Shown here piece after piece: positions 4,360 to 63,162 of a stretch of 64,000 nucleotides of DNA. This stretch comes from Astropecten irregularis (lineage: Eukaryota > Echinodermata > Asteroidea > Paxillosida > Astropectinidae). The notes under the pieces were generated by a model. It ran no database searches, had not been told where the DNA came from, and worked only from the letters and a program-made list of their open reading frames with translations. The stretch spans positions 14,694,001 through 14,758,000 of the forward strand of contig OZ020244.1 in assembly GCA_963971285.1 (NCBI GenBank). Reading direction: 5' to 3'. A program made the position numbers and the translations under genes. The stretch's first letter is position 1, and each line of letters opens with the position of its first letter.

Positions 4360-6594
4360 TTATGAGAGTTTGTTTTGGTGCCAAAATGATACATTGTATT
4401 ACATTAAAAATGGGTCAATCATTCATAGGGCCTACATTGTATTATATTATAATACATAGTGCGCGTGTGCGCCAATGACCACTCTATATTCACTGCAATT
4501 AATTCACTCGGTGATGTAGTTGTGTGTTGGACTAGTCTGTTTTGATTCTGTATGCATTGACAGGCGTTTGATCGTATGAAATAACCAGATAACTGGATTT
4601 GATAAATGGACCTTGTGACATAAACATAGGAATTATCTTCAAGTGGGACTAGGCCTACGTATACGTAGTCAGTTTAAGTAACGGTAAGTCCGGGCGAGTA
4701 CGTTACTGGCCCAAGCCTAGGCTATGTTTCGCATGATGACGTGTGTCGGTGTGATGTTTAATACATGTCACTGATGTAGGTGGCATTATACTACGTTCTA
4801 CTGAGGCTCTATCGTGTTAATACGACATGTAACACTACTAATACTAGTACTTTAGTACTGGGCCTATTAAGGGAAAATTAATTACCGGCCACTCTGAAGA
4901 AGCCTCGTTTTAGCCTTACGAGGGCTTGTTCATCTTGGGGATCAGGGAATTTTATGTACTGCCGCTGGTCTCCCAGAACTCCGATGATTGCATAAACCAC
5001 CCTGGAAATTGCTCTCCATGCAGTGGGTGGGCTCACCCTTGGAACTGTGTCCCCCACCACAACTGCGAAGGTACCCGATGAAAGATATCTTAACGCCAGG
5101 CACACTTGCAGCAGTGGTGGGAGAGCGTGGTTGCGCTCGGTAGTGTGCTGCAGATGTACTGACAGTATTCCTGCCAGAAACACAATTGTCGGTGGCCGAA
5201 ACCTATACCTTTGCCAAACTTGGGCTTCACTGTACATTTCGAGCGGATTTTCTCTGTCCCGAAAGACCCTCCGCTGACGTTCGACCGGATAATTTCGGCG
5301 ACGCCGTCTGAATCGACGCACAACCATTTTTTATCTGTGTTTGCGTGACGATTTTTAAAAATGGCGGCTCTTCCTTAGCACAAAAACGGCCGGTTAGCAT
5401 ACCATTTGGCATGCTAAGCGCTTCAAGCAGAAAACGCGTGCTTACAGTGTTTATGAAATGAGAAATCACCAAACAAGCGCTTGCTTAAGCAGAAAACGTG
5501 TGCTTAACAGTTTTATGAAATTGGCCCCTGGTTGGCAAGACAGTTGGAGCTCCATTAGGCACGTACGTACCACATGCAACGCAGAGGGCATGTAGCTTGC
5601 CAACCAGTGATGCATTTGCGCGTGCGTGCATCTAATTAACATATTTCATGGGAAAGGTCCATTACCTACGGTTAAAATGGTTCACGATTCTTAAAGGTAT
5701 TTTCATACTTTGGTTTTTGTCAAAGAAATACAGATTCCGAATGGGCAAAATTATCAAGGGGGATACAGTACACACAGAGAAAAAATTACCCAGGTTGGGT
5801 AAAATCTTACATATCTGAGATGTACCATACGTACTCGCCAGCGATTAAGTAAAATTTTACCTAACACGTGTTAAGTAAAATTTTACTTGTTAGTTTTGTA
5901 AATCATAACTTCATTGTTGTGTTATAAAATTTACCGAATAATTAAGTAAACGAAAGTTGTGTAAATTAAACATAATTATGAAGTAAAATCTTACCTAGCC
6001 CAAGATAAAATATTACCTTTGTTTTAAGTACTTATATATTTTTTTACTTATTTACTGTGTTAAAATTCTACATAAATGTTACGTAAAATGATATCACACA
6101 CATAAAAACACGTTCAGAAGCGTATTTAACATTGATATTGATTTGTTTTATTCAATCATCTTCATACCCTCATAAATGATTACAATATTAAAAGTACTTA
6201 ATTGTGGCATCCATAAATGGGTCTTTGTAATGTCCATAATTTACATGCACTACCATAATTTAACTTCATTAAAGAAACTTATGCTTCAATATCATTTGTT
6301 CCTTTGAAAGTATCACTTCTACCAGCATTTTTGCTGATCTGCAATGGCTTGTCCCTTTTTCATATAAAATCATACAATTATAACAGTAGGTGTTTACTAT
6401 AAATCACGTCAAATTTTCTGTTTAAAACACAATTTGAAATAAATAATACAAAAACTTCAAAGCTTTATAAAACAACAGCAATCACAACTTTTTTTATATA
6501 ATAATACAATCATGAGATGTTTTCATTCGTATATAAAAATATAAAATATAAGGCCTAAATCTTTTTATCCGATAAAAATAACAACTGTTGCCAC

Positions 6595-7480
6595 AGAGCC
6601 CCAATTTTTATAGTTGACATTCAGTCCACGCTTATTGTTTGAGAGACAACTTGCAAAACAAACCCCTCTTTTTATTTGGGGGGGGGGGTTCCAGTTATAG
6701 GAGACACCATAATTGGTTTATATGAATCTAGCTTTTATAAAAAAAAAAACATAGAAAATAAAACCTTTGGAGTTTTGACACAGAGAACAAGTTCAAAATT
6801 GACCTTTAGCCCACCCTTATTGTTTCAGTCACAATTACAATAAAACATATGAACCATAATAATAACAACGGCTATGAACACATTATATACAGTGTCTTAA
6901 ACAGTGTTCTCCTGGGTTGCTGGGCAATGGATCCAGTAACAAAGGCAATCACAACACTACTGGCAAGAGCAGAATGCACGGAAATCCCTTATTTTGTTGC
7001 ATTTGAGTTTGCATTTGTGTATCTCAAACACAACTGCATGCTGCCATGAATTCCCTACCACACCCCTATGCACCCCAGAAAATCCTCATTTGGGGGGATT
7101 GCAGTTACTAGGAGACACCCTAATTGTGTTAGATAAATCTTTTTATCCCAAATCATTAAAAAATACAAACTTTGACACAGATCCGAATTTTGACCTCCAG
7201 CCCACTCTAATAGTTTCAGTGAACATTTTCCCCTAAGACCCCACTTTTTCGTGGGGGGGGGGGGGCTGCAGTTACTGGAAAGAAACACTTTAATCATGTC
7301 CTCATAAAGTTTTTCACTTTCATTTGTTCCTCTTAGTTTGTTTGTCTTTCAGAAATTTTAAACAATATTTCAATACAACATATGAACCATACTAAAAACA
7401 AGTTATTAACACAACATATTTACACAGTGTTCTCCTGGGTTGCTGGGCAATGGATCCGATAACAAAGGCAATCACAACAC
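6595..7480. repeat. Tandem duplication of the 3' end of the element A SAM gene
   Basis: About 200 bases at 6850-7060 repeat the sequence at 7384-7584, which holds the last codons and 3' flank of the SAM gene. Shared words include TGCTGGGCAATGGATCC and TGCACGGAAATCCC. Around them, G-runs followed by CAGTTA..GGAGACACC (near 6690, 7095 and 7255) and the CCCA..TTATTGTTTCAGT stretch recur, so the region grew by several rounds of duplication. The outer copies have no complete exon. Confidence 0.65.
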
Positions 7481-10400
7481 TACTGGGAAGAGCAGAATGC
7501 ACGGAAATCCCTTATTTTGTTGCATTTGAGTTTGCCCTTATGTACCTCAAAGACAACTGCCGCCATGAATTCCCATACCCCTACACACTTATCTTGATAC
7601 TCGAGGTCCAATATGAAGTAGGTCTTAAAACACACATCTAATGCCTTCAGTAGAGATGACTGTGGGAGGGCCTTGCGTTCGACAATGACAAACAGCTGCT
7701 GTGGATTGAGTAAGGTGCCTCCCAAGATGAGAATGTATGGCTGTGACTTGGATGCTTGATCAATATCAGATAGGTAGTGATCCAAGCCGGTACTCTCCTG
7801 AAGGAAATAAATAATATCATTATTAGCTGTGTGTATGTGTGACCGAAACAAAGAGCGTCTTCTTGTCAGTCTTCCTAAATGTATGCTCAATATATGTAGC
7901 TCCTCTGCATAGTACAAAATAGTTGCCATGCTCAGTTCATGATTTTAAATTTGTAGCCATGCACAAAGAATACTGACAACAATAATGATTATTTACATTG
8001 TTGCTTTACAAAACTTAACAATGGAAATATACTTATTGCTGGGGAGCTTCATAAATATGAGTTCCTTACTTTTTGTGTTACAAAATTAGGTACAAAGACA
8101 AAAACTTACACACTGAAAGTCTACAAATGCTGAAGATGATTCACTGCTGGAGATTTTTCCACCTTTCACCTTCCTCCGACCAGTGAACAGAAGTGGCAAT
8201 GCGAAAACTGCCAGATTTTTTCTTTGTTCTGAAAAAAACATTAACCACAAGTGCAGCATATATAAAATGGTTGTTTTGTTTATAAGCATTACACTCTTAG
8301 TTACCTTAGCTTTATAAGAAACAAGGAAGATTTCACAATTTGTATAAAAAATTGCAGCTAGTAGAATTTTTTTAGCAGTTTGTGTAAAATTAGACAAGGA
8401 CCTTATTTTGCAACTTTCATTCAGGTTATACCACCCACCCTTCCCACCCCCCCCCCCTCCAAAAAAAGTAAAAGTACACATTTATGATAATGCAGCAACT
8501 CCAAAGTTAACAATATGTGTGATTGGTTACAGTTTTGGACTTTGGTATACGTGCCCCAAACATATCGCAAAGTAGCAGCAAAATTTCCCCTAGCCTCAAT
8601 CCTTTCTTAAAAACACAAGACCTTAGTACCTGCAGTTAACTTATCCAAGTTAGCGTGATCAGCAAGGTCCTCTGGATCAGGTATGAGCTGGGTCTCCCAA
8701 GATGGAATAACTATCTTTACGTAGCTGATGAGCTTCTCTGCAAGATTTGGCCATTTGGTGTACAGGTTCCCTTCAATGTCAGGATACAATACTTTGAAGT
8801 CTTGTTCAATCTGTGTACAAACATAATGACAAATATTATTATATTTCTACTTATTACAAAGTGAGACAGAATCCCAAAGCACAAGAAGAACCTTTGCACA
8901 AGTACAAATGAATCAAGCTTTGATTGAAAGCTAATGATTCATCATGTTGTACTCACCATTCCTGGGTCAAGTATGTGTGGAAATTCCTGAAGTATGCTAT
9001 TTACACTGCGATCTTGTCCTTCAGCCTTTATCCATTGCTGACGGTAGAGTGCTGTCTCCTCCATATACCTTGACACCTTGTCCGAGTCATCTCCAAGGAT
9101 ATTTGACTTTAGCCATTCAATCTTCTGAGTTGGTTCTTCAAGTTCTGCTTAAAAAACAACAAAGATGAAAATAGACTGTGCTTTATGATTATGAATGTTA
9201 AGATGTAATTTTCTCCTAAGAATTAAAATAAAACAATATTTCTTTAGTGCTTGAACCCTGTTTAGACTAAAGGATGATGACAAGTGTATGTTTCTACATT
9301 TGTTCAATCGCTCTGTATTTCTGTATTTGTTCAATCGCTCTGGAACAATATGGCCAATGACAACATTTAAACTGCCAATAGACAATTTATAGGATACAGG
9401 GATTATAATATTGTAGTTATTTACCAGGCTTTGACACAGTCTGTTCCGGTGATTCAATCTCACACAAGCGTCGTTTTTTGGTCTGCTTCACACTGGGCAC
9501 GGAAGTGTTGCTAATTCGTCGAAGATAGCTTAAGCGATCTTCAAGAGCACCAGTTGCAGGAACTCGCGCTGCCCCTCTACAGTAGAAGCTCTCCTGATAA
9601 TGATCAATTACAACAAGTACAATAAGTATCTTATTAATTGCTTTCAAGGAAATGTGATTTTTGTTGGTACCATGTACATGTACCATACCGTACTGTACAT
9701 CCTCACTGCATCAATGATGGTTTTGTTTTGTAACCTGCATGAAGGGAAAAAGTCTGTTTACTGCAGAAACCAACAACTCTTTAGCACTATTAAGTACTGA
9801 AGGAGGGGTGATGGCAAGATTGTACATGTGTCCTTGAACATTACAAAAAGAATACTAAAATAGAAAAGCTTAAAGATTTCAAAAACAGTTTCTTCTTTAT
9901 ATCTACTGTGTTTACACAACACAAAATTAAATAATCAATACTTACATGGCCAGTAATTCCTTGAGGATCCTTCAGGAATGGAAAGGCCTCTATAATACCC
10001 CTTGCCATTTCTGCTTTCACAAAGGAAGCTGGTCTGTAAATAGTTGAATGAACATAAAAACTGTGGCATCGTAATCATAAAAATTAATGTTTAACATGCT
10101 TCAATTCGAATTATTGGACAATATTCCCCTATTGTGAAACAAAACTACAAGTTTTGTATTAAGGTTAGCACCAAAAATATTGCCTTTTACTTATATTGAA
10201 GAAATTGAAGAAATTATATAAGAAATTGAAATTGATAATTAAAAAGGAAACTCAATCAGTAACATAAGATCATTTACCATGGAATTGTGGCTAGGCACCT
10301 TCCCAAATAATCTATACTTTAAGTTTAAGTTTACATTTTAAATTTGCTGAATATGCAACCTGCATTATGTTAAATAATACAGGCATGCAGCAATGAACCA

Positions 10401-13400
10401 CTTGAATAGTTCAATTTTGTGAGTTTGGTGGTATTGAGTGGTTAGAATGATTAATGTTCCAGCATTTTTTTTGTTGAAAACTCATGGTAATAGACCGATT
10501 GTGCGACCAATGTGAAAATGCCATCACGTGACTTATAGTGAGTATTTTTTCAACTCATTAGGCACAGAGCAGCGATGGAAACGTGCCAAGAAGACTACTG
10601 AATTGTCTATAGTCTTCTTTGCTCGTTTCCTCTGCTGTTCTGCACCAAATGAGATGAAAAAATACCCACTATATGTCACATGATGGCATGTAAACATTGG
10701 TCGCACAATCGGAATATTGTTTGAACTAACCTGTATCCATAACACTTTACCAGATGAGCACACAATATATGTACCATTTGCTTTTTGTCTGGCTTTGACA
10801 ACACCTTCAACTGCTCGATGCGTCTCACGACTCTGGCACCAGATGGGTTCCCCTGAAGGATTTTCTGTACATCCTAAAAAAAACACCAAAAAATACAATT
10901 TCTAATTATTCAGTATTGCACCTGTAGATTAATATGAAGGGTTTCCAGGTGATCTGAGAGATTACATTTACTATGATTTCCAAAAAAAAAAAATTGCCAA
11001 AACACACACAAAAAAACATGTTTTTCTAGCTAGGCTCTTTTAACACATAACCACCAAAAGAAGGCCTAGTGATCCAGAAATCAATGCAGTCTTGATTACA
11101 CAGGAAAAGTGAAAATATTCGGCTGGTTTTGTTTTGGTGGGGTGAATTGTAGCATTGACAGCAAGCTTTCCCTGATGAACGAAAATGCACATGGACAAAT
11201 GTAATCTTCATTATTAACATAAATTCAATCAACAACCAATCAAAGACTTACAAAAATGATTTCTCCTTTGGGCTGGGTGACAGAATCATCTGGCAGCAAA
11301 GAGTTACTTGTCTCAACAAAGTTGGCAGTTGAAGAACAAGAAGGCTTCTGAGATGGTGATGGTAGTTCCATGCTAGATGTTGATGCAAGACTTGTACAAG
11401 GGCTGGGGGTTTCCGGAACAAGGACGGTAGTGGAACTGTCGCTCAGAAAACTTAACTCACTCATCATGGATAAGGAGTCCTGCTTGTCAAGAAATCCCTT
11501 GTCTGAGACACATCCACTCTCAAAAGTAACTGGAAAACTGCATGAGCTTGCTGCCAATGACATTCCGAACTATATGCAGAAAATAAAAGTAAAAGACAAA
11601 GTGAATAGTTAGATTAATTAATTTCTTTTTGCCATTTACATGTAGTTAGAGCATATCTATATAAGCTTAAATACTGGTGCAAAACTTATTGCACAGCCAG
11701 ACCATAGCCACCAATGTACAGTGTATGTAAAATACAAAATTGATTAAAACATTTTTGAGAGTGTTGATGATTATGCAAGACACTATGCCAAAAAATTGCA
11801 TGTGAACAGAAAGATAAGAAGAACAAATACAGTATTTTCATATGTACCTAAAGTACTGTTCCACTGTTTCCACCAATCAGCTTAATCATCAGGCAAGTTT
11901 GAATCTAGTGATAACAAACCACACTGAATTGTGGGCGTCATAGCATTTAACAGCTTGGAGTGGCTTGTGGTCGAGCAGATCTTCTGGGGCCTTTACTTGG
12001 AAGGGATGGTCGGACTCTTTAACAGCATAAGCACTATAGTGCTGGTCAAAGTACAAAGTGACCCAAGGTTTCACAATGAGCTTGACAGAGGCATCTTTGA
12101 TCACAACATGTTCAATGTTTGCAAACTCTGGCTCTTCTTCCCACTTTGTGAGTACCATTTCGTTTGCTCGGAAGGTGTATCCACTGACACTGACAGTTGT
12201 TGCTACAGTTATGTCTTGCTCTTGTGCCATATTCAATGCAGTACATATCTGTTGACTGTTGCAAAGTGAGGAAACCTTTACTATAGCTTGGTGTCCTATT
12301 TCAGTTGTCCTACTGTCTATGTGTTGTTTCATTAGGAATTGAAATCCTTGCACCTGCTGGTGTCTGACCGATAGTGTTTTAGCAATGTTAATGAAATTGT
12401 TTGATACTTTAGCCCATTTCTTTAGCTGTTTATGTTTTGCTTCTAGTCTCATTACTGAATACTGACTTAGAGGACCCAACAATCTGATGGCACGGGGGTA
12501 GTGCAAACAGTTGTGGTGTTTTGGAGTCAGGTGTCTTTCAGGGAACAGTTCCAAGAAAAGTGCATGATGCTCTTCAATTTTTGATTTTAAGTAGACTGTT
12601 GCCAATTTGCTGATCCTAGGAGCACTGACCAACTTGAAAATTTCCAATATTAGTAGGAGTAATTCCCAGTGCTTTGAATCTTCATCTACTTTGTCTCCTA
12701 TCAGGAGGGGAAAATACAGCATTAAGCACTTCATTTGAGCAGCTTTTTGCCCACTAGCTCCAGCTGGATTGGAGATCTGGTATGTTGTTAAATTGCTTGG
12801 CCGGTTCTTCTTGTCAGAAAATCCATAATTGAAGGACTGTATTCTGCTATTTATGGAAGACAGAGTGATCTGTTCATCCTCAATTAGATGTCCAAGGACT
12901 AGTTTCATTTCAAGTGGTAGTATTCCTTCTAAGAAATCATGCATGATATCAAATACCACATTGTCACATACATGGTAGTATGGCAGGGAATTCAAAATGC
13001 TGTTAGACCGTATGCCTGTTGCAGAATAATTGTTTGTATCTAAATCCATTACAAAGTTGCCATGATTTCGCAGTAGTGCTTCATTTTCTTCACCATTTAC
13101 TCGAGCTTGGTCACGGTGCATCTTACATGTACGGCAAAAGTAGTTACTAACAAAACTTATGGCATACCCAAGCATCAAATTCAGAGCCAAATTATCCCCT
13201 GTAAGTTGGAATAATCTTGGTTTCACAGTGCCAACATATTCACCAGGTACATTAATCTGTACTCCAGTTCTTTCCAGTTCCTTGAACTCATGAACAATTG
13301 GAGAAAGGACACTGTCAATTCCATACTTGGCAACATACTGACTTTGAGCTAAAGCAACCAGCAAAATGTTTTGAAGGCTTGCTTGATATTTCAAAGGCAA

Positions 13401-15257
13401 GCATAGAAATGTAATGTATACTGCAGTTACCTTATAGATCCCTTTCCTAGAGCCAAGAGGATTGGCTGTTTCGAAGTCGTCCGAGTAGAGCAAAATAGGG
13501 ATGAATAGATCTTGACTGTTAAAGTTTTCTTTGAAGTATAAACCATCACGATATGATTGTAATACATCTTCATCATTTGACTTTTGCTCGTTTAAGATGC
13601 ATGACATCACACCTGGTTGTTGTAGAAATTTCATTACCAATTCTTTTAGTGGAATATATTGAAATGAATGGTCATGCTCTTCTTGGAAGTTCCTGCCTGT
13701 TTTTCTGTTGGTGTTAACCCTAAAAACAGAACCAAGTTTCTTTTCTACAGGCTCAATTAATGAATCTACCTCTCTCATGTGCTTGTTTTGTTTGCTTTCT
13801 GTTTCAAAATTTCTGAAAATATGTCTTGTTTCCTCCAGCATCTTTTGGGCATCAGTAACTTTTTCTTCAGTTGGAATAATACCAGTTTTCATACCAGTAA
13901 GCATTGGACTTACTTTTTGCTCTATTTGACTGACAACACTCTCTAGCAACTCCTTTGATTCATTTATTACATATTGTACAACTGATGCAGGTATAGCTGA
14001 GCTTCGTAAGCGTGCTATATATACAGCCACTGAATCCTCCAAGTCAGTATTTGCATTTGTTTTTTCATTATCTTGTCCTTGATCACCAATTTCTTCTAAA
14101 GGAGCATCTGGTATATCATGTTCCTCTAAATGTTCTGGTTCATCCCCATCACTGTGCTCATCTGGTTCTACTTCATCATTTTGCTCCATGTGTCTGAGCT
14201 CTTAATGCCGCTTATACGTTGATCCACGCCAAAAAATTTGGCGGCAGTTATGTTCCGCACAAACAAGTTTTGAGCATGTAGAAGAAAGGATTACATGAAC
14301 AAATTTCAGGTGCATGAATAGGCCACGAATTCCACCGTGTACTTTTTTTAAACATTTGCAACATGTAAATGACTGCATGATTCCAGATATTGTTGACTAA
14401 GGCACGTAGTTCATGTTACATCTGCAAAGTGGAAAATTGGAAAAATAAACCACAATTTACTTAGCCTTCATTTAGTGCAGCAGTACCTCTTTATAACAAA
14501 ACATGATTTATATGTGTATTTTTTTTTATTCACACCTAGACTGACACTGACACTCACAAAGGCCACTGACACTAAGAGCAACTACAAACAAACAAAATTA
14601 GCAAAACAAAAACCTGCAGCTTGTACTTACCTCCTGTTGATGGAACTTCATGAGTTTGAGGCGAACACCAAGTTTTGGAATGATATCTTTCACAGTTTCA
14701 CTTGTTAGCAATGGAAAAGATTGGTCATCAAATCCTTCTTCTGTGAAAATATGAATTATAAAATAAAAGGAAAGACTATGCATAAAAATAAATACAATAA
14801 TATTCCGGTATTAATACTATTGTAAAATTTAATATTCAAAATAATGTAAGAGTATTATAATGCCTGATGAGTGATGTAGCCTTAGCCCTATGGTCATTAA
14901 TAATAGTTAATACTTAATAGTTAATACAGACATTATACAATACATCATTCTTCAAGGTCAAAGGTTATACATGAACTTGTCATTGTACGTGTGATGAGGG
15001 TATACATGGTATAGTGTACACGTAATTATGCACTGATTTGTATACTACATGATTGTATTGTCATCCACATTGCAAGAGTAATCGTGGCTGAAATTGTCAA
15101 CCAACAATCTGTTCAACCTCAAAATAGTCCAGGTCTATCCTTGATTGCCAAGTAACTGAGCTAAACTAATGAAATGAATTACTTTACCTTGGAATGTCAC
15201 AATAAGATCTTCCAATCCCCAGCTTGTCAAAAGCTGTGCCGCTCGTGAGTTCTCCAT
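7480..15257 (-). CDS. SAM-domain protein (SAMD3-like), ten exons, second gene of CACTA-like element A
   Basis: Exons on - are 15257-15188, 14740-14631, 11569-11252, 10873-10731, 10033-9946, 9593-9425, 9147-8957, 8810-8630, 8228-8110 and 7797-7480. They join in phase (1,0,0,2,0,1,0,1,0) with no stop, giving 1707 bases and 568 residues. Residues 1-60 form a SAM domain (LLTSWGLEDLIVTF, then KLGVRLKLMKFH). A serine-rich linker follows (exon 3), then ILQGNPSGARVVRRIEQLK and IIEAFPFLKDPQ, which I recognise from SAMD3-like proteins. The last exon holds a globular domain starting QPYILILGG. SAM domains mediate protein association; a role in binding element ends or partnering the transposase is inference. 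Intron 2 (3.06 kb) encloses the transposase gene on the same strand. Exon 7 has a tandem AAG/CAG acceptor. Confidence 0.8.
10495..10712. repeat. Foldback element with arms of about 100 bases
   Basis: The ends are CCGATTGTGCGACC and its inverse, and the two halves pair along almost their whole length, meeting near AGACTACTGAATTGTC at 10595-10610. The arms differ at scattered positions. It lies in intron 4 of the SAM gene of element A and has no coding capacity. No target duplication was clear. Confidence 0.7.
11889..14189 (-). CDS. CACTA-like transposase of element A, N-terminally shortened
   Basis: This is a single open frame of 766 residues. The visible start is an acidic stretch (residues 1-50). 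Recognisable parts are a Cys pair in YFCRTCKMHRDQ (about 353), the acidic motif DIMHDFLEG (about 412), LTPKHHNCLHYP (about 553) and RLEAKHKQLKKW. The same order occurs in the transposase at 57643-60174. I assign both to the CACTA/EnSpm-like (Tnp2-type) transposases, which cut and join the element ends. Just upstream in the same frame (14190-14268) a zinc finger of spacing C-x4-C-x12-H-x4-H is readable but is cut by TAA at 14212-14214. The ATG used here is therefore probably a fallback. The gene is nested in intron 2 of the SAM gene. A Plavaka/KDZ relative is an alternative classification. Confidence 0.7.
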   Translation of the reverse strand: MEQNDEVEPDEHSDGDEPEHLEEHDIPDAPLEEIGDQGQDNEKTNANTDLEDSVAVYIARLRSSAIPASVVQYVINESKELLESVVSQIEQKVSPMLTGMKTGIIPTEEKVTDAQKMLEETRHIFRNFETESKQNKHMREVDSLIEPVEKKLGSVFRVNTNRKTGRNFQEEHDHSFQYIPLKELVMKFLQQPGVMSCILNEQKSNDEDVLQSYRDGLYFKENFNSQDLFIPILLYSDDFETANPLGSRKGIYKVTAVYITFLCLPLKYQASLQNILLVALAQSQYVAKYGIDSVLSPIVHEFKELERTGVQINVPGEYVGTVKPRLFQLTGDNLALNLMLGYAISFVSNYFCRTCKMHRDQARVNGEENEALLRNHGNFVMDLDTNNYSATGIRSNSILNSLPYYHVCDNVVFDIMHDFLEGILPLEMKLVLGHLIEDEQITLSSINSRIQSFNYGFSDKKNRPSNLTTYQISNPAGASGQKAAQMKCLMLYFPLLIGDKVDEDSKHWELLLLILEIFKLVSAPRISKLATVYLKSKIEEHHALFLELFPERHLTPKHHNCLHYPRAIRLLGPLSQYSVMRLEAKHKQLKKWAKVSNNFINIAKTLSVRHQQVQGFQFLMKQHIDSRTTEIGHQAIVKVSSLCNSQQICTALNMAQEQDITVATTVSVSGYTFRANEMVLTKWEEEPEFANIEHVVIKDASVKLIVKPWVTLYFDQHYSAYAVKESDHPFQVKAPEDLLDHKPLQAVKCYDAHNSVWFVITRFKLA
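14190..14268 (-). pseudogene. Interrupted N-terminal C2H2 zinc finger of the element A transposase
   Basis: Read in frame with the transposase, this piece has Cys, four residues, Cys, twelve residues, His, then a stop (TAA at 14212-14214) in the last linker, then the final His immediately before the ATG at 14189. Element B keeps the same finger with identical spacing (residues 39-62 of its transposase). One nonsense change has cut off the N-terminus in A unless a spliced start avoids it. Confidence 0.6.
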
Positions 15258-15581
15258 GATGCTGTGAGTGTACGTACGTGTAAAATGCATGTTGCATGCA
15301 ATCAGGCAGGCGCGCGTACTGCACTGACAGAATTTTACACACACAATATGCAAACTTTTCTTCATACATGTAAACTTTTACATATTAGTGACGATAAATT
15401 TTAACTATTCAGTAATTTTTATATAACATGGGTAATTCGTCCTTCTTACTTGTTTATTTGGATTTTTTTAATTTACTTTAAAATTTAGTAATATTTTTTT
15501 TCGACAACTTTTACTTAATATCGGTTTTTATTTACACAACTTTATTTACATAGCTTTTTTTTACATGTCGTTTTGAGAGTG

Positions 15582-15852
15582 TAACAGTCATCTGTGAAAC
15601 TTTCAGTCCAATGCGGTGCCCACTTTTTGAGAAAACAGTGAAAAACGGCCACAGTATTTCTTAAGTCTTTTCTTTTTCATTTTGATCTTTATTCTTTATT
15701 TAAATAAAATAACAATTTTGGTCACTGGTTTTACTCTTTGCGGATAAAAATGTTAACTGTATGTTTCTACCATCACCATCTTTACCTGTATAAAGTTACA
15801 GGCAAATCTGTGAAGATTTCTGTTTCGGTATGCTATCAAAGTATGATACTAC
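15582..15852. other. Spacer between CACTA element A and LTR element 1
   Basis: This is AT-rich sequence with no reading frame of note. It continues across LTR element 1 at 27920, as the shared four-base CTAC at the insertion point indicates. No feature is recognised. Confidence 0.5.
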
Positions 15853-17899
15853 TGTGACGAAAATGCCCCCAAAAGATGGTCATTTTAGTCATAATATTAT
15901 CTTACCTTTAGTATGAAGACTTAATTACTTCATGAATATTATCCTTAGAAGGCTGGTTATATTGATTAGGATTCAACTGTCAAACTGTAGTATTGTCCAC
16001 GCACACATAAACATGGTGACCACACACGTGTGTATTATGTCAATGCAGTCTATTTTTAGAGTTTGTATGAAATCCAAGATGGCGTCTTCCGTGACTCTCT
16101 AAACCTTGTTGTGATTGGTGGAATGTTATTAAATTATTATCTCGTTTAGAAGCTGCGAAAACAAGATTTTGTATGAGTGTAAAAATCCATTCTTTTATAC
16201 TGTGTAAATTTATAGTATTAATATATTCACTGTAACAAAACTTTCCCGACAGTGAAATTAAGTAGGACAATAGTACAATGTCGTCTGTTTTCATTTAGTA
16301 GATTGAGTCATGAATATTTAGTAGATTACATCATCACTTTCATTCATTAATGAACTTAGTTTTGTTTACGTTCGGGATTTTACTTGCCGAACGAGTGAAG
16401 TTTTAAGTAATGATTCACGTCTAGGAGCTGTTATTCCTAGAGAATATAGAGTGTGGAGTTATAAAGTATAATTAAGCTTATTTAGTTAAAGTAATTTCAC
16501 TGTATAAAGAGGTGAATTTAAGCCGTTTTCCTACCTTATATGATGTGTAATTTTGGCCGATGTTAGGTTTTGGCCAAGTTGAGCGTATTGCGGAAGAACA
16601 TTTACTAGTGCGTAAGGCGCGCAATTTAATTGGTATAAATACCGAGATTTGAGAGATTTTTGAGACACATTCGATGGTTCGTTCATCCACTCAATTAAGT
16701 CTGAAACGTAAAGGTTAAATAAAAGTCCCTTAAGAGTTTTTCAGTGCTGCTGTGCTGCTGACCTCCAACCATACTAGTCCCGGAGCAAGAATAAAATAAC
16801 ACAGAGGTAAGAGAATAATTCCCTAAACCCAAACCCTTAGTAAAACGAGAGTCCTTAGATTTTTCTGTCCTTCTAGAGAACCTTGGAGAGCCAAGGAGCC
16901 AAGTTTGGAGAGCCAGTGGAATACTTGGGGAGCCGGGGAGGATAATTTTGAGGAGCCAATCAGAAACTTAACGGATAGCTGTGGAGTCAAATTTTGAGGA
17001 GCCATTTAAACGCTGGAGTTGTAGATGCAGAGTAAAGCTTAATTATTGAGGAGCTGATTTGAGGAGCTACAGAGGCGCTTACTTGAGTTCAAAAAGCCAA
17101 GAGCGTTTTATATTTCCCAGTCCGATGAAACTATAAGACACAAGTTGCTTACTATTATCAGTGATTGTTCGTTTTAGTGTTAAGTGGATATTGTTGTTAG
17201 CTCTTAGTGAGCGCAGTATCACTTGCTTTTATTTTTTTAGATAGTTGAATATTGTTGTTAGTTCTTAGTGAGCGCAGTATCATCTATCGGCCTTTGTTTA
17301 GATAAGTGGATATTGTATTAGCTCTGGGAGCGCGGTATCACTTATTATTTTATTTTGAGACAGGTGGATATTGTTGTAAGCTCAAGGAGCGCAGTATCAC
17401 CTTTGTTACCTTTACGTTGAGATAAGTGGACATTGTTTTAGCTGAAGAAGCGCAGTGTCACTTATATTTTATTTCGATTGAAGTGTTGTTGTTAGCTCAG
17501 AGAGCGCAGTATCACTTTTATGTTTTATTTTCTATAGCATTTGCAGACTGAGGGCTAGCAGTTGCTAATTTTTTAGAATATACTTGACTGGAATATAATG
17601 AGTTTCGGTGTGCATAGCTGCTCTGAGAGTTGAATAAAAAGGTTATAAATAGTTTTCTGAATTTAAGCTACTCTGTGGTTGAGTCGAATCCTTGAGATCT
17701 CAGTTGTCTTGAATCATTCTAACACTTGGTCATATATATTGACGACGGACCCTAGTCTACCAACTCGAGACTAAACCGGTGAGGCGGAACTCCGGAGGTT
17801 TAGGCCTGTAAATTTTCCGCCTGGTGGCAGCGCTATCATCGAAGGCGAGCCGGGAGGACCCCGGGCTCGCCGACCCCCTCTTTTCCTTTTTCCGCCACA
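15853..17899 (+). repeat. 5' LTR of LTR element 1
   Basis: 2047 bases, TG...CA ends. A TATA-like TATAAATA lies at 16634-16641, and AATAAA signals lie near 16723 and 17633. The segment 16860-17060 repeats GGAGCC-rich words. The segment 17140-17520 holds tandem units of roughly 60 bases, each pairing AAGTGGATATTG with CAGTATCACTT across a short loop. The region after 17899 starts TGGTGGCAGTGG, the expected place for a primer-binding site, but I could not name the tRNA. Confidence 0.9.
16634..16641 (+). promoter_or_regulatory. TATA-like box in the 5' LTR
   Basis: TATAAATA in the context TTGGTATAAATACC, about 780 bases into the LTR, with an identical copy at 26575-26582 in the 3' LTR. The LTR must carry its own promoter, and this is the best match by eye; transcription start is not known. 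Confidence 0.45.
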
Positions 17900-18037
17900 G
17901 TGGTGGCAGTGGTGGGATAAAATAGTGTTAGAAATCTGATTTGAGAAACTTGAGTAAAACAAGGTAAATTTTATTGAGAGCAGAAAGAAGAGAAACAGTC
18001 CAAAGAGGATACGATAGAATAGGAGGACACGGATAAT

Positions 18038-19369
18038 ATGAGCATGGAGGCTCATGAGGTTGACAGATGTTTGGAGGTCAGCAACACAAACTTAAACCAG
18101 CACAGCAGCACAAACACACAAGGAACGGGACCGGAAACTTCTGACGTGGGCGGAATGGATCACCATGGAGATTCAGAGGGTAACGGTGGGAATTATCCCA
18201 ACAAAGCAGCGGAATTGAGGTTTAATTATCCGGAGCTCGGATCACATGAACGAGAGGATCACAGAGGCAACCGGAGGATTAGAAATCCGAACACATACTT
18301 GGCTCGAGGAGAATCGCCTTACCACAGAGACGATGAGTCTAATCGAGGAATGGATAGACTGTATGGGGAACCATGGAGGAATGGGAACCCAACTTTTGAT
18401 AATTATGGATATGGTAGAAACTTTGAAAGACCAGGAAACAGATCTTTCGTCAGTAGGAAGGAAGTTACCCCAGAAAGATATGACGGTCACGTAGGATGGG
18501 GAGATTACCACAGACACTTTGAAGCGTGCAAGATGGTAAATAAATGGTCAGATAAGGATGCAGCTTTCCATCTGGCCACACGACTTCATGGACCAGCCTT
18601 GAAGGTATTAGGCAACATGCCATTAAATGGTCATATGGATTACAAGGAGTTAGTGACAAAGTTGAACCAAAGGTTTGGTTCTGGCAAGCATCCCGAGAAC
18701 TATCTCTTGGAATTGAGAATGCGGAAGAGGAGACAAAATGAAACTCTTCAAGAAATAGGTCAGGAAATAAGAGATCTGACTGCAATGGCATATCAAGAGT
18801 TGCCACGTGAAGTGACGGAAAGACTCGCAAAAGGTCATTTTTTGGATGCAATGGATGACCCAGAAATAAGAGCTGGGATATTTAGGTCCAAACCAGAGAC
18901 GCTGGAGGACGCAATACGAGCAGCATCAGAAACTGAGTGTTTCCTACTTACAGAACAGAGTCGAGATAGGATGAAGCCAAGTAGATATTCAAGGAATATC
19001 ACTGGTGGAACTGGTGGAGAGTCAAACCAAATGACAAATGGTAATTTAGGACTAGATGAAATACGAGCAACACTAGCAGAGTTAACCAAAGCCATGCAAG
19101 ACATGAAGCAGATCTCGATGAACTACAATATGGAGTCAGAGATGAGAAAACCAAAGTTTCAAAACAGTCGTCAGGAAGGAAACCATCTGTGTTATGCATG
19201 TGGAGAAAACGGACATTTTGCTCGAAACTGTCCGACACAAGACCCACGTAACCAACAACACCGGATGATGCATTCAAACATTCACCGGCCAACTCCAAGG
19301 GTCGAGAGAAGGCCGGGAAACTTTGGGAAAGACCCAACAAACCAGAGGAGTACAGTTCCAAGGTATTAA
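18038..19369 (+). CDS. gag: Gag polyprotein of LTR element 1
   Basis: The open frame of 443 residues starts at ATG 18038, 139 bases after the LTR. Residues about 140-300 form the gag core typical of Gypsy elements (YDGHVGWGDYHRHFEAC, then FHLATRLHGPALKVLG). A CCHC zinc knuckle, CYACGENGHFARNC, lies near residue 385 and should bind the RNA genome. The N-terminal 120 residues are rich in Asn, Gly and His with no recognised fold. The frame is intact, unlike pol downstream. Pol starts in another frame close to the gag stop, so its expression would need frameshifting or a spliced message. Confidence 0.88.
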   Translation: MSMEAHEVDRCLEVSNTNLNQHSSTNTQGTGPETSDVGGMDHHGDSEGNGGNYPNKAAELRFNYPELGSHEREDHRGNRRIRNPNTYLARGESPYHRDDESNRGMDRLYGEPWRNGNPTFDNYGYGRNFERPGNRSFVSRKEVTPERYDGHVGWGDYHRHFEACKMVNKWSDKDAAFHLATRLHGPALKVLGNMPLNGHMDYKELVTKLNQRFGSGKHPENYLLELRMRKRRQNETLQEIGQEIRDLTAMAYQELPREVTERLAKGHFLDAMDDPEIRAGIFRSKPETLEDAIRAASETECFLLTEQSRDRMKPSRYSRNITGGTGGESNQMTNGNLGLDEIRATLAELTKAMQDMKQISMNYNMESEMRKPKFQNSRQEGNHLCYACGENGHFARNCPTQDPRNQQHRMMHSNIHRPTPRVERRPGNFGKDPTNQRSTVPRY

Positions 19370-19379
19370 AGCGTGACAA

Positions 19380-22300
19380 GATAGAAAGACAATCCGACAG
19401 GGATAAAATGCAGGCAGGACTCTTTATAAATGGGACAATTTGTGACAAGGATGTAAAATTCCTAATAGACACAGGATCGTCTCATACAGTTATTTCGAAG
19501 TCGACGTACTGGAGCATGGATGCTAACTTACGACCACAAACCAATGAAGAACAGACTTAGCCAAGCTGATGGAAATCCATTGGAAGTTGTAGGCAGTGGA
19601 TGGGTTACTGTACAAATAGGGAAGTCAAATCTTTCTTTGGAAATGATTGTAGCTGATATTTTCAATGATGGAATACTGGGAATAGATTTCCTATTAGAAA
19701 CTGGAGGAAGGTTAGACATGGACAAATTAGTGTTGGAACTCAAAGGAGAACGAATTCAATGCTTGGCTGCGGAAGACAAAGATCGACTTTTAAGAGTGGT
19801 AGTGTTAGAGACCCTATCAGTGTCCGCTGGACAAGAAGCAGTGGTAAAGGCGTCACTGTCAAAATCAGCTGAATACAAAGGATGCGGGTTGATAGAAGGA
19901 CTACCAATAAGTAATTTAAATGATAAAGGTATCTTAGTGGCTAGGACTTTGGTAGACACTGCCACAACTGTATTACCAGTTAGAGTAATGAACGTAGGAG
20001 TTCAAGATACCATAATAACAGTAGGGACTGTAATTGGATTACTTTCACCTATTGATGAAGAATATATAAATTCACCGTCGAGTATGACCCAAGAGAGTGA
20101 GAGTACTTATATTCGAACATTGAGCGATGTAGAAGCAACAATTCCGGACCATCTCCAGGATTTATGGAAGGAAAGTTGCCAGACATTTAACCAATCAGAG
20201 CAAGTTGCAGTTGCTGAGTTATTAATTAAATATCAATATGTCTTTTCAAAGGGAGAATATGATATAGGTCAGACGAGTTTAGTTAAACACAGTATTGACA
20301 CAGGAAGCTCAATACCAATCAAACAAAGACCGAGACGAGCACCAGGAACAAACAGAGACGAAATGAATAGACAAGTACAGGAACTATTGGAGAAGGAGCT
20401 TATTGAACCATCATCAAGTCCATGGGCCTCTCCAGTAATCTTGGTGTCAAAGAAGGACGGCACTAAGAGATTTTGCATTGATTACAGAAAATTAAATGAC
20501 GTGACAAGGAAAGATTCCTACCCTGTACCGAACATCGAGGATTCATTAAATGCACTCGCAGGAGCGAAATGGTTTTCTAGCCTCGATTTAGCCTCAGGGT
20601 ATTGGCAAGTCGTAAAATGAGGATGCAAAAGACAAGTCCGCATTTGTAGTTCAAGGTGGCCTATATTCCTGGAATGTAATGCCATTTGGCCTATGCAATG
20701 CACCCGCCACATTTGAACGCCTAATGGAACGAGTAATGGGAGGATTACAGTGGGAAATCCTATTATTATATAATGATGACATCCTATGTTATGGAAGGAC
20801 AGTATATGAGGCACTAACCCGATTAGAAACAGTATTCACACGACTAAGAGAGGCAAAATTGAAGCTGAAGCCCAAGAAATGCCATCTCTTGAAACAAAGT
20901 GTGCAGTATCTAGGACACATAGTTTCAGCTGATGGAATTGGAACTGATCCTGGGAAAATTGAAGCTGTGAAGAATTGGACATGTCCACAGACGGTGACTG
21001 AAGTCCGAAGTTTTCTCGGATTGGCATCGTATTATCGGCGATTCATCAAAGGATTTTCCGATATAGCAAGACCCCTTCACAAACTCACGGAGAAGAACAG
21101 ACAATTTATGTGGACGGAGGAATGTGAACAGTCATTTGCTGAATTGAAGCAAAGGCTAATATCAGCTCCGATTTAATCATATCCACTACCAGAAGACAAT
21201 TACATATTGGACACTGATGCCAGCGGGTATGCACTAGGAGCAGTACTGTCACAAATCCAAGATGGAACAGAAAGAGTAATTGGATATGCCAGCAGAAGTC
21301 TAAATAAAGCAGAGAAGAACTACTGTGTAACCAGGAGAGAATTATTAGGAGTCGTATTCGCACTGAAGCATTTCAAACCATATGTATACGGAAGAGCAAT
21401 AACCGTAAGGACCGACCATGGAGCACTGAGGTGGCTGACAAATTTTAAAGATCCGGAAGGACAACTCGCTCGATGGCTGGAGACAATAAGTCAATACAAC
21501 GTGATCCTCGTGCACAGACCAGGCAGGCAACATGGAAATGCAGACGGACTATCACGGAAATGCTCCCAATGTGGACGGGATGCATATTTTTTATTTACAC
21601 CGCGGGCTAGGGTTTTTCGCTGTGGCAGTGCAAATTCATGCTTGAAAAGAGACTACAAGTGGTCTGCTACCCAAGCTTATTACTGTAGCCTGCTGTAAGC
21701 CTGTAGCTGTAGCGTATGGTGTACAGTGTACATTTACTGTAAAGTAATTTTAGGACTACAAACATTACATCGCATACTGTGTACAAGCAATGTGCATACC
21801 TGAGTTGTACTGTATATTGCTTTGTACGTTGTGGAGGGACGGAATGAAATGGAAAAATCACGAAAAAACAGACTGTACATTACAAGTGTAAATGTGATGT
21901 ATGTACTGCGACCATTCAGTCCTCCATGGTCAGAGTAACTTGATCTATGCTTGGAGTAATTGGACCTAACAATTAACAGTACGAATGTTAGATAGGCGAA
22001 GTGCCTAGAAGTGTAATTTCTCTGACTCGTACTTTTTTTGTCGTAGGCACTCTTTTCGCGGAGTACAGTTTCTTTTCTGTGATCGTTGTCATTTTCAGCA
22101 CCTCACTGTATTCAAAACTCATTTACAAACTAGGCTGACGATTGATACATGATAATTTTAATTATCAATTTTATTCAGCAGAGGTGAAGGGCCTCGCAGT
22201 ATTTAGACGTATTTGTCAAGTTTCAATTCTTGAATTGTAACTGGCAACACTGTAGATGGGGGAATGATGCGCGCGTGGCACAACATACAGCTGTAGTCTT

Positions 22301-23961
22301 TTCTCAAGCATGAATCTACATTGCCACAGCGAAAAACCCTAGGCTGCGGTGTAAATTGCGGACGGGATGAATATGTAGACATCAATCAGGAGACCCAGGA
22401 AGAGCAACCACTCCAATCACTCGATGTAATAGAAACTGAATCTGAAAATAAAGAAGAAGAAGCAGACATGTCAGCAAGGAAGGAGTTATTAACAGTGGAT
22501 GATAACCTTAGGGATATGGAAGGACTAAGATGTAGTCAAATAAGAGTAATAACCATTGAACCACAAATCGCTTTAGATGAACTAAAGGAGGCCCAACAGG
22601 AAGATTTAATATTGGGGAAGTTACTTAGAAGAATTGAGCAAAATACTGGTAAGCCAGAATGGAAGGAAATTTCAGATCAATCTTCTGAATATAAGACCTA
22701 TGTATCTCAATGGAAACAACTGGAAGTAAAGCAAGGAATATTATGTAGGAAAAGGGAATCAGATAATGGCAGACAAGTTGACTATAAGGTAGTGTTACCT
22801 AGGAAACTACGTAAAGTGGTGTTAACTGAACTTCATGAAGCAAAGACAGCAGGACATTTAGGAGTGCGGAAAACAAAGCAAAAGGTGCAGAGTCGATATT
22901 ACTGGGTAGGATTAAGTCAGGATGTACGCTCTTTTGTGAGGTTATGTAATTTGTGTACTAGACGCAAATCCATAAAAAAGAAGAAGATGCCCACTCCAAC
23001 AATACATGGTTGGATCACCATTAGAACGAATTGCAATGGATATTTTGGGACCACTACCAATCACTGAGAGAGGAAACAAATATGTCTTAGTGGTCGGAGA
23101 TTATTTTACCAAATGGTTAGAAGCTTATCCGATACCAGACCAGACAGCTGACACTATAGCAACTAAGATAGTGGAAGAATTTATATGTCGCTTTGGTGTA
23201 CCTAGAGAAATACACAGTGACCAGGGAAGGAATTTTGAGTCCAATATTATAGCAGAATTGTGTAGACTGCTAGGTATTAAGAAAACTAGAACTACTCCAT
23301 ATAATCCAAAGTCAGATGGCTTTGTAGAACGGTTTAACAGGACACTGATGAATATAGTGGCAACCTTAGTAGATCCTCAAAGACATCAAAAAGATTGGGA
23401 TTAACAAATACCGTATGCATTATTTGCTTACAGAAGTGCTATACAGGAGTCCACTCAGGAAACCCCTTATATGATGATGTTAGGACGTAATGTAGAATTG
23501 CCTATAGACTTAACTATAGAAGTACCACAGGAACCAGAAAATGCATGTAGTGACTATGCAGAAGAGCTGAGAAATAAATTCATCACAGCACATGAAAGGG
23601 CAAGGAAATGCCTATATGGTGCAGCAATTAGACAGAAGCAGGGGTATAATCGTACAGCTATGACTGTAAAATATCAGAGGGGATGTATGTGTGGTTACAT
23701 CACCCTGTGAGAAATAAAAGGAACTGTAGCAAACTTTCCTTACATTGGGAGGGACCATATGAAGTAGTCAAACAGCTCACAGATGTAGTCTTCCGCATAA
23801 GAACGAAGAAATCTGGAGGCTTTGTGGTAGTCCATGCAGATAGGCTAAAGGTTTATGAAGGACCGCCTGTCAAAACAAAGACTAAAAGGGACAGAGAATC
23901 CAGTAAGCCAGAAAAGAGAAACCCGCCTAGAATGAGGAATAGGCCAGCAAAATATTTATAA
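19380..23961 (+). pseudogene. pol: Pol polyprotein of LTR element 1 (protease, RT, RNase H, integrase), disrupted
   Basis: The protease motif LIDTGSSHTVIS is near 19460. Reverse transcriptase spans about 20380-20800, with YNDD in place of the usual YLDD or YVDD at about 20768. RNase H starts LDTDASGYALGA near 21208. Integrase has an H2C2 zinc region (22835-22970) and catalytic residues in MDILGP, HSDQGRNFES and DGFVERFNRT (23036-23345). The C-terminal GPYEVVKQLTDVVFRI part is near 23750. Lesions seen: a one-base shift near 19550, another near 20615, TAA at 21174-21176, an inserted element at 21582-22359, a shift near 23010, TAA at 23402-23404 and a shift near 23690. The gene is non-functional as written. 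Confidence 0.88.
21582..22359. mobile_element. Mutator-like MITE inserted in pol, 9-bp target duplication
   Basis: The inserted segment has inverted ends of about 65 bases (ATTTACACCGC, then CTAGGGTTTTTCGCTGTGGC on both sides). The sequence GGACGGGAT flanks it at 21573-21581 and 22360-22368, and removing it restores a continuous pol frame. A nine-base duplication with long inverted repeats is the Mutator pattern. No transposase frame is inside. The left end has about eight extra T-rich bases compared with the right. Confidence 0.75.
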
Positions 23962-24037
23962 ATTGAAATTAAGAGATAATTTACTTTCCCTATGGTTCTT
24001 CATTTTACAGAGAGAGAGACCAATACAGAACATAAGC

Positions 24038-25632
24038 ATGACAAGGCCACTGGAGGACATCAATGATATATTACAGGAACGGCGCATCCATGAATGTGAA
24101 GTGCGTGGGTTGTGCTTTGGAAAAAGGTTCAACCTCGACCGTCACCGCAGCACCCACCTGGAATACAGAGAAAGGTTTCAATGCAGGCAGTGCCCCCTTA
24201 GTTATGGGAGAAGAGCACACCTGAAACGCCACTACGATAGTGTGCACACCAACAAAAGAAACGATGCACCACGGGTTTACCCAAGAATCGAACAAATTAA
24301 ACCCTGGATGACCAAGGGAGGGAGAAAAAGAGAAATGGAGAGAGATGCAGGAAGACAGGAAGAGGAGACAAGAAGAAGACAAGGGGAGAGAGATGCAGGA
24401 AGACAGGAAGAGGAGACAAGAAGAAGACAAGGGGAGAGAGATGCAGGAATACAGGAAGAGGAGACAAGAAGAAGACAAGGGGAGAGATGCAGGAAGACAG
24501 GAAGAGGAGGCAAGAAGAAGACAAGGGGAGAGATGCAGGAAGACAGGAAGAGGAGACAAGAAGAAGACAAGGGGAGAGAGATGCAGGAAGACAGGAAGAG
24601 GAGACAAGAAGAAGACAAGGGGAGAGAGATGCAGGAATACAGGAAGAGGAGACAAGAAGAAGACAAGGGGAGAGAGATGCAGGAAGACAGGAAGAGGAGA
24701 CAAGAAGAAGACAAGGGGAGAGATGCAGGAAGACAGGAAGAGGAGACAAGAAGAAGACAAGGGGAGAGAGATGCAGGAAGACAGGAAGAAGAGACAAGAA
24801 GAAGACAAGGGGAGAGAGATGCAGGAATACAGGAAGAGGAGACAAGAAGAAGACAAGGGGAGAGATGCAGGAAGACAGGAAGAGGAGACAAGAAGAAGAC
24901 AAGGGGAGAGAGATGCAGGAAGACAGGAAGAAGAGACAAGAAGAAGACAAGGGGAGAGAGATGCAGGAAGACAGGAAGAGGAGACAAGAAGAAGACAAGG
25001 GGAGAGAGATGCAGGAAGACAGGAAGAGGAGACAAGAAGAAGACAAGGGGAGAAAGATGCAGGAAGACAGGGAAGAAGAGACAAGAAGAAGACAGGAGAC
25101 AAGAGGAAAAGAAGGAGAGAGAAATGCAGGAAGGAAGGAAGAAGAGACAAAAGAACCACACCAAAGTGAAACACACACCGAAGAGGAAGAAATTGCAGCT
25201 GAAGAGGCAGCTATATCCCTTATGGCGTCAGACATCGAAAAAGAAATAGAAGCAGTAAAACAAGAAGACACGCAGAGGCAGTATACAAGTACTTCAGGGA
25301 AACCTAAATCAATGGAATTGAAAAGAAAGATGATGGAGGAAGGTGGAGAAGAAGAAGAAGACATTGACAGTGAGAGTGAAAGTGACAGTGAAAGTAGCCA
25401 CAGTGGAAGTAGTGATGAAGAAGGAAGCAGCAGTAGTGATGAAGAAGGAAGCAGCCAAGAAGAGGAGAGACAACCCGTAAAGCGACGAAGGTGCAAATTT
25501 GAATACATGAAATGGCAAGACATCAGCAAGGGGATAACAGCGATCACTGAAACACACTCAAAGACGACCTATGACAAAAGAGGAAGGGTGAAGAAAACAG
25601 AAGTAATAAAAAGAAAACACGGACTTATTTGA
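24038..25632 (+). CDS. Third ORF of LTR element 1: C2H2 zinc fingers, charged repeat array and acidic tail
   Basis: The ORF begins with ATG 24038, shortly after a strong splice acceptor (TTCATTTTACAG ending 24010), so it may be made from a spliced RNA as env genes are. Residues about 20-70 hold two C2H2-type fingers. The second (CRQCPLSYGRRAHLKRH) is complete; the first has Arg where the second Cys should be (TGT to CGT). Then follow about 16 units rich in Glu, Arg and Gln from the 48-base repeat. The C-terminal part has an acidic serine stretch and a basic end, and stops at 25632. Units of 46 bases shift the frame, so fingers (frame 2) and tail (frame 1) are not in one frame in this copy. 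It is not an envelope-like protein: no signal peptide or membrane segment is visible. Function unknown. Confidence 0.6.
24340..25085 (+). repeat. Coding minisatellite, 48-base unit with 46-base variants
   Basis: About 16 tandem copies start GAGAGATGCAGGAAGACAGG and end AAGACAAGGGGA. Most units are 48 bases (16 codons); some lack one GA and are 46 bases. Some copies have AATACAGG for AAGACAGG. The unit has no stop codon in any of the three + frames, nor in the - frames that give long antisense reading frames here. Confidence 0.9.
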
Positions 25633-25781
25633 AGAGCAAACATGAGAATAGACTAAACAGAAGCAAAAGTGTGAGATTTTAAATTTGGAATAGGGCCTAT
25701 TAAGTTAATTACAAAATATAATTTAGGCCTATATGTACTACCTAGGCTAGTTATTTAAATTTGCTGAGGACAGCAAAATCT

Positions 25782-25794
25782 TAGGGGAAGGCAA
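25782..25794 (+). other. Polypurine tract of LTR element 1
   Basis: AGGGGAAGGCAA directly abuts the 3' LTR start TGTGACG, the position where plus-strand DNA synthesis is primed in LTR elements. Confidence 0.6.
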
Positions 25795-37628: not shown

Positions 37629-37676
37629 ACCAAGTTATTTGTATATTATGTTGTTTGATCCCATTTGCATTGCAGG

Positions 37677-38655: not shown

Positions 38656-39202
38656 TGGCAAGTGGCGTCGTAGACAGGATGTTCAACACTTCGTAGCCGG
38701 TATATAGAGTTATCATTTCTAATTCTATATGCTAATTATGTAATGGTGTTATACTGTATGAAACGTTTAGTATGGAAACCCCCAGGCCATGTTAAAGAAA
38801 TTTTGTGATAGGATTACCCATGTGGTTGATTTCCTTGAATTTTGAGATTTAACTACATTTTGTGTGTTTTGGTTATTTTGTGATGTACATGTGTACATGT
38901 TATATACATAAGTGTACATGCATGTAGGCCTACATTTAAGTACATATGGCTAGGCCTAACTAGTATTTTGGTGTCACAAGTATTTTTGTTTTTTTTGCTG
39001 ACCACTCAGCTGTTTGCATTATTCCTAGTGCGTATGTTTTGGCTCTATTACTAGGATTATATGATATTATGACTTGTGAATATGCTTTGTATGCATTATC
39101 GATTCCCGAGTTCCATGGGAGTGGTGTCATTTTAAGCTATTGAATTAAGTAGTTGTCTCAAGTTGAACTAGTGATTAATACGGGCCCAGCTTTACATAAG
39201 AT

Positions 39203-43469: not shown

Positions 43470-43633
43470 GGAGGCTGCCGCTTCAGCGGATCTGGTGTAA
43501 ACCACTCTGACCTGAACTTGGACCGAGGAAAAGTGTGGGTAGCCACATTTCAGCTACTGCTGCGTTTTAGAGACTTTTAACTGCATACAGAGTTTCAGAG
43601 TTCTTTGATAGTTATTGTTGTTCTGCTTTCGAC

Positions 43634-45617: not shown

Positions 45618-45732
45618 TGACACATATATAAATAAATTAGTATGACAACAGAGATTGATTTTCATTTGGTTTTCGGTTATGTATTGATTAATTTCTTGGG
45701 TAACACAATACATATTTTATTCAACATTAAGA

Positions 45733-62968: not shown

Positions 62969-63162
62969 GTATTACTACTAGTACTAGTTAGTACTACTAA
63001 CTTAGGCTACTAGTTTTCTAGGGGCCTGCATATGGAATGTTGACAACATTGGACAAAAAGTGAATTTTACAAGGTTTTTTCCTATAGGCCTAGGCCCCTA
63101 GGCCTACACTTCGAATGAAGTTATTGGCAGCCATTTTTTTCAAAACATCCTCTCATAGGGTT

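Follow-up and report, generated by a model that had tools for sequence, protein, structure and literature searches.

A 64,000-nucleotide stretch of the genome of the sea star Astropecten irregularis (contig OZ020244.1 of assembly GCA_963971285.1, positions 14,694,001 to 14,758,000; hereafter the window, with coordinates counted from its first base and a G+C content of 39.6%) contains a multi-exon gene for a SAM-domain protein with a transposase frame inside its second intron. This raises the question of whether the SAM gene belongs to the host or is itself part of a transposon. Elsewhere in the window a second transposase has a related SAM gene beside it, and we refer to the two gene pairs as copy 1 and copy 2. 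We favour, with a probability of roughly 70%, the reading that they are two diverged copies of a DNA transposon with two genes, from the CACTA/EnSpm-like (CMC) lineage of animals, of which the multi-exon SAM gene forms part. The gene models, the linkage of the two genes in both copies, the location of the copy-1 genes between the proposed ends, the inverted subterminal repeats of copy 1 and the order of conserved transposase residues are observed directly. The recurrence of the pairing with two distantly related transposases suggests that the SAM gene is a component of the transposon, perhaps one that assists its movement.

The SAM gene and transposase of copy 1

The SAM gene of copy 1 extends over ten exons on the minus strand, from 15257 to 7480, which join in frame to give 567 codons and a stop. 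All nine introns are bounded by GT-AG, and the fully open ten-exon gene that had been proposed from the letters of the window is thus borne out. Its second intron holds the transposase frame (14201-11889) on the same strand, as the same sequence-only reading had stated.

15188-15257, minus strand: SAM exon 1, start codon and first half of the SAM domain
14631-14740, minus strand: SAM exon 2, second half of the SAM domain, aligning with copy-2 exon 2'
14202-14378, minus strand: N-terminal segment of the transposase, read in frame from the ATG at 14378; two C2H2 fingers recognisable by inspection
11889-14201, minus strand: transposase open reading frame (ORF), 770 amino acids, inside SAM intron 2
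11252-11569, minus strand: SAM exon 3, low-complexity linker
10731-10873, minus strand: SAM exon 4
9946-10033, minus strand: SAM exon 5
9425-9593, minus strand: SAM exon 6
8957-9144, minus strand: SAM exon 7
8630-8810, minus strand: SAM exon 8
8110-8228, minus strand: SAM exon 9
7480-7797, minus strand: SAM exon 10, stop codon, 40% identity to the last copy-2 exon

Structure prediction for the last of these exons gave a predicted local distance difference test score (pLDDT) of only 41.2. The tail of this exon together with the stretch downstream is involved in a duplication (6834-7059 versus 7367-7579, 85% identity). Intron 4 carries a palindromic insertion resembling a miniature inverted-repeat transposable element at 10489-10718, and similar palindromes lie in copy-2 introns (54169-54280 and 55992-56133) as well as at 61604-61756.

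A second, diverged pair

A tblastn search of the window with the copy-1 transposase found a second frame at 59883-57658 (32% identity, E = 5e-98). On the same strand, 3' of this transposase, a second SAM gene is represented by nine exons (57363-53093), with seven of the eight intervening introns bounded by GT-AG and one by GC-AG.

57646-60174, minus strand: copy-2 transposase, 843 open codons from the ATG at 60174, stop codon at 57645-57643
57224-57363, minus strand: copy-2 SAM exon 2', second half of the SAM domain
57015-57119, minus strand: copy-2 SAM exon 3'
56622-56761, minus strand: copy-2 SAM exon 4'
56197-56290, minus strand: copy-2 SAM exon 5', GC donor
55414-55593, minus strand: copy-2 SAM exon 6'
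55047-55208, minus strand: copy-2 SAM exon 7'
54452-54602, minus strand: copy-2 SAM exon 8'
53853-53977, minus strand: copy-2 SAM exon 9'
53093-53422, minus strand: copy-2 SAM exon 10', stop codon

The two SAM proteins are 28% identical over 400 alignment positions (E = 4e-32), and since so distant a relative adjoins a second transposase within the same window, the association of SAM gene and transposase is more than chance. Five of the eight copy-2 SAM introns have the same phase as a copy-1 intron and lie no more than two alignment columns from it; two others match in phase and order but fall in an unalignable linker, and the remaining one differs in both phase and place. A second, diverged pair with mostly matching introns indicates that the two genes have probably been kept together over a long divergence. 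The copies differ at the three codon positions by 0.56/0.47/0.69 in the SAM gene (440 aligned codons) and by 0.55/0.43/0.66 in the transposase (742 aligned codons), and these closely similar values indicate that constraint has acted on both proteins and that the genes have probably moved as a pair.

These comparisons bear on two other explanations of the locus. The first is that the SAM gene is an ordinary member of a SAMD3-like host family, into whose intron a transposase-only element landed, as might be argued from its many introns and from SAM proteins being common in animals. It does not readily accommodate a second diverged transposase beside a related SAM gene, with both genes diverged to a similar degree, and the putative ends of copy 1 provide further evidence against it (see below). 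The second explanation is that a host SAMD3-like gene was captured and is carried as cargo, with no part in transposition. Gene capture by CACTA elements is a known phenomenon. The words 'frequently capture' are used of them in the accessible part of PMC8195511. However, a passenger gene would be expected to decay, whereas this gene has been kept in frame and under protein-type constraint in two copies whose proteins are ~70% diverged, and we therefore consider cargo status improbable.

Exon 1 of the copy-2 SAM gene was not found in three upstream searches that together extended to the end of the window (57.4-64.0, 60.2-62.7 and 60.2-64.0 kb); the exon is perhaps outside the window, diverged past recognition, or lost. 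The layout likened at the outset to that of En/Spm, with one gene nested in the other on the same strand, therefore stands for copy 1, while copy 2 is a linked pair whose nesting would be conjectural.

The SAM domain

The assignment of a SAM domain to the copy-1 gene, also made in the sequence-only reading, gains no support from copy 1 alone, in which Pfam finds no SAM match and which retrieves nothing significant among solved structures (best E = 0.027, a CHD4 chain). It does gain support from copy 2, whose exon 2' matches SAM_1 above threshold (25.6 bits against a cutoff of 23, E = 1.6e-5, model positions 29-63 of 64), and from a profile of the two copies, which matches the solved SAM domains of tankyrase-1 (E = 4.6e-8), bicaudal C (E = 8.8e-8) and caskin-1 (E = 1.2e-7). 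Against tankyrase-1 the profile scores 36.2 bits when copy-1 exon 1 is included, 22.0 when it is left out and 23.1 when it is reversed, which is evidence that this exon encodes the domain's first half. No relatives of the SAM protein were found in a viral contig collection.

The transposases

Both transposases contain, in the same order, D241/D242, D336, C356-x2-C359, H562/H563, H567 and E587 (numbering of the copy-1 ORF), and thus share the D-D-C(2)C-H(3-4)H-E order of the CACTA/CMC lineage. The accessible part of PMC12730594 gives the same arrangement for EnSpm, Mirage, Chapaev, Transib and RAG1, to which the present proteins are likened by motif. Structure prediction for the transposase pair was poor (pLDDT 34.5), so the shared residues are assigned as catalytic by motif order alone. 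Two N-terminal C2H2 fingers are recognisable by inspection in copy 2 as well, where the Pfam zf-C2H2 match is weak (E = 0.39). No transposase relatives were found in viral and prokaryotic contig collections, although given the composition of these collections the scans for relatives of either protein tell little about animals. NCBIfam returned only chance-level matches, and Rfam none at gathering scores.

Putative ends of copy 1

Both genes of copy 1 lie between clusters of inverted subterminal repeats.

5771-15581, strand not assigned: proposed element of copy 1, with CAC...GTG termini and a possible TA target-site duplication
5771-6171, plus strand: left subterminal region, repeats around GTAAA / AAGTAAAATTTTAC
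15181-15581, minus strand: right subterminal region, same GTAAA-type motif in inverted orientation

GTAAA occurs eight times in each region on the strand given, the window-wide maximum for that strand in both cases, and this count was reached by none of 2000 shuffles on the left and by two of 2000 on the right. The motif was picked after the ends had been inspected, so these counts are partly post hoc, while the 8-mer scans use no chosen motif. Among 2744 pairs of 400-base flank windows, the pair at 5700/15300 shared the most inverted 8-mers (22; mean 4.3, standard deviation 3.7), and across the whole window only two of 86,913 inward-facing pairs 8-12 kb apart reach 22, the copy-1 ends among them. 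Read inwards, the two end regions have a best ungapped match scoring 15, which was reached by none of 60 shuffles of the left region.

The exact boundaries are less secure than the clusters. The sequence-only reading had placed them at 5771 and 15581, where the ends read CACACAGAG and CACTCTCAA; this is the only CAC/GTG pair with matching TA flanks among positions 5700-5849 and 15500-15699, a 2-bp match being weak evidence. Apart from the inverted clusters around both genes, CAC...GTG and a possible TA duplication are the sole marks of the termini. The 13-base string that this reading cited for the left end shows no enrichment across the window (23 occurrences with three mismatches or fewer, against 18.9 expected). 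A terminal inverted repeat (TIR) of the CCC type was sought and not found: CCCAG occurs once in 5000-6600 (plus strand, at 5789) and once in 15257-17600 (minus strand, at 17328), the latter within a long terminal repeat (LTR) of the retroelement that borders copy 1.

We also considered a transposase-only element inside intron 2, and found no support for it: among 210 pairs of 250-base windows, the best shared six inverted 8-mers (mean 2.8). Thus end-like repeats enclose the whole SAM gene of copy 1 and this smaller scan shows none right around the transposase, which argues against a transposon having landed in a host gene. In addition, copy 1 sits between other transposons, namely the bordering retroelement, whose LTR begins at 15853 and which we take to belong to the Gypsy superfamily, and a fragment at ~4.9-5.3 kb that is presumably Harbinger-like and has no Pfam match. 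We therefore regard the host-gene explanation as very unlikely.

A possible transcription and splicing scheme

On the reading that both genes belong to one transposon, a single promoter 5' of SAM exon 1 would drive one transcription unit. The SAM protein would be made when splicing skips the transposase exon, and splicing into an exon preceding the transposase ATG would produce a transposase message continuing into the SAM exons, like tnpD in En/Spm. SAM domains can polymerise; the SAM protein, which may self-associate in this way, would attach to the subterminal repeats and bring the ends together, with cutting and joining left to the transposase. The TNPA-like role of the SAM protein is suggested by analogy, and we infer the transcription, splicing, binding, self-association and mobility of the element from its sequence.

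Alternatively, the element may have two genes with separate promoters, the nesting in copy 1 being incidental and not the sign of one transcription unit. The position of the transposase with respect to SAM exon 2 differs between the copies, as separate promoters would allow, and the putative 3' splice site preceding the transposase of copy 2 (60247) is weak, with nine of 20 pyrimidines. Its counterpart before the copy-1 transposase ATG (14422) is good, however, with 16 of 20, and both genes lie on the same strand in both copies. In both copies the interval from the transposase stop to the SAM exon that follows lacks AATAAA and ATTAAA, which also speaks for a single unit, although these intervals are only 320 and 282 bases and the missing hexamers are accordingly weak evidence. 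Such hexamers are present 3' of the SAM stop (one ATTAAA and two AATAAA in copy 1, two ATTAAA in copy 2), a pattern that weakly fits a shared 3' end. On balance, separate promoters seem to us unlikely, but this is an alternative to be taken seriously.

Three candidate joints for a SAM-transposase fusion were tried and rejected. When copy-1 exon 2 is spliced to 14421, a single Met codon is followed by a stop, and exon 1 joined to the same position runs into a stop after three more codons; because of these early stops no fusion protein is predicted from either. In copy 2, joining AAG/GTAAAT at the transposase end to SAM exon 2' also leads to an early stop.

Comparison with known elements

A close parallel in layout is En/Spm of maize. 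In the accessible part of PMC2613891, tnpA is described as having 11 exons and tnpD as consisting of a frame in intron 1 plus those exons, and TNPA is described there and in the accessible part of PMC8195511 as binding subterminal repeats. The Astropecten locus resembles this system in its multi-exon partner gene, in the transposase frame in an intron of that gene (in copy 1) and in its subterminal repeats. It differs in that the partner has a SAM domain, in the location of the transposase (intron 2 of copy 1, upstream of exon 2 in copy 2), in the lack of a CACTA TIR at the ends, and in the zinc fingers carried by the transposase.

Animal TRC elements (Schistosoma, Tribolium, Aedes, Hydra), including SmTRC1, share with it a CACTA-like transposase and, if the TA duplication is real, 2-bp direct repeats, but as far as the accessible part of PMC1636069 describes them their TIRs are 10-54 bp long and start with CCC, whereas the ends proposed here start with CAC and have no longer TIR. 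A partial SmTRC1 clone with two tandem frames, one of them from the transposase frame, is described in that part, alternative splicing is reported, and the second gene in Schistosoma is said by its authors to have no detectable kin among other TRC elements. Among the literature matches listed, no title or opening part of an abstract describes a SAM gene in a CACTA-like element, Repbase and subscription literature, where an earlier description may exist, being outside the search.

Weighing the evidence

Several observations weigh against the reading of the two pairs as copies of a CACTA-like transposon. The Pfam match of the copy-1 transposase to Transposase_21 (PF02992) is weak, at 20.1 bits (E = 3.9e-4) against a cutoff of 28.6, and copy 2 has no match to this family up to E = 1. 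The proposed ends have only CAC in common, with no further TIR visible, and the plant-type CACTA TIR of about 13 bp is absent from them. The CACTA-like identity claimed in the sequence-only reading is supported by residue order and by the subterminal repeats of copy 1.

Copy 1 is also probably damaged, since its transposase finger region is interrupted by one TAA (14204-14202). The frame had been called complete from 14189; it is indeed open, but the in-frame finger segment upstream, from the ATG at 14378, is split off by this stop, so that the frame was called complete without its N-terminal fingers. The copy-2 transposase is open across the corresponding region.

The layout is not strictly conserved, as the transposase is within SAM intron 2 in copy 1 and 5' of SAM exon 2 in copy 2, so that a different SAM intron would contain it in each copy. 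With regard to the ends, an unrelated pair of windows (29701-30100/38851-39250) equals those of copy 1 with 22 shared 8-mers. The ends of copy 2 were not found: the best of 6392 pairs share 17 8-mers and tie at two or more different places (52650/63000 and 52050/60300 among them). Because these pairs (mean 3.9, standard deviation 2.8) lie about as many standard deviations above their mean as the best pair of copy 1, the 8-mer scan alone is not decisive. Finally, the evidence consists of two copies, both from one 64-kb window.

Possible kinship with SAMD3

The two-copy profile matches a provisional version of the human SAMD3 sequence with E = 2.8e-6, the best of 200 shuffles reaching 0.095. The match to this provisional sequence comprises three collinear segments, of which two are significant alone (0.0014 and 0.0022) and the SAM segment is not (2.2). 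With single-sequence BLAST against the same letters, copy 1 gives E = 5.6e-4 (~20% identity over 226 columns) and copy 2 gives E = 1.2. As the human letters are provisional, kinship with SAMD3 is a lead only. It is conceivable, though we are inclined to doubt it, that SAMD3 and SAMD3-like animal genes descend, at least in part, from the end-binding second gene of a CACTA-like lineage, domesticated without the transposase, with SAM polymerisation having served to pair the ends within the transposon.

Other elements in the window

The window contains several further elements and repeats. The retroelement bordering copy 1, of Ty3/Gypsy type, occupies 15853-27919, with LTRs at 15853-17899 and 25795-27919 that are 94% identical, TG...CA ends, CTAC on both flanks, and an internal reverse transcriptase and zinc knuckle. 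A tandem array at 24323-25094 (48-base unit, ~16 copies, 95% matches) is open in several frames. A second LTR retroelement, at 37674-45622, has direct repeats of 987 bp around a reverse transcriptase/RNase H frame, and since these are nearly identical (99.4%) it is probably a recent insertion. An open frame at 33159-34556 contains DUF4371 (E = 4e-17), a domain often found in hAT-like transposases. Upstream of copy 2, on the plus strand, lies a Myb/SANT-like frame (62616-62978, PF13873, E = 5e-10).

Significance

En/Spm of plants depends on two proteins, and in its animal relatives the second gene has so far been obscure. A partner with a recognisable domain, retained in two diverged copies, would define the second component of animal CACTA-like elements. 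If the reading proposed here is true, splicing and end-binding become testable, and annotations that treat such SAM genes as host genes would need re-examination; the elements would also be a possible source of animal SAMD3-like genes.

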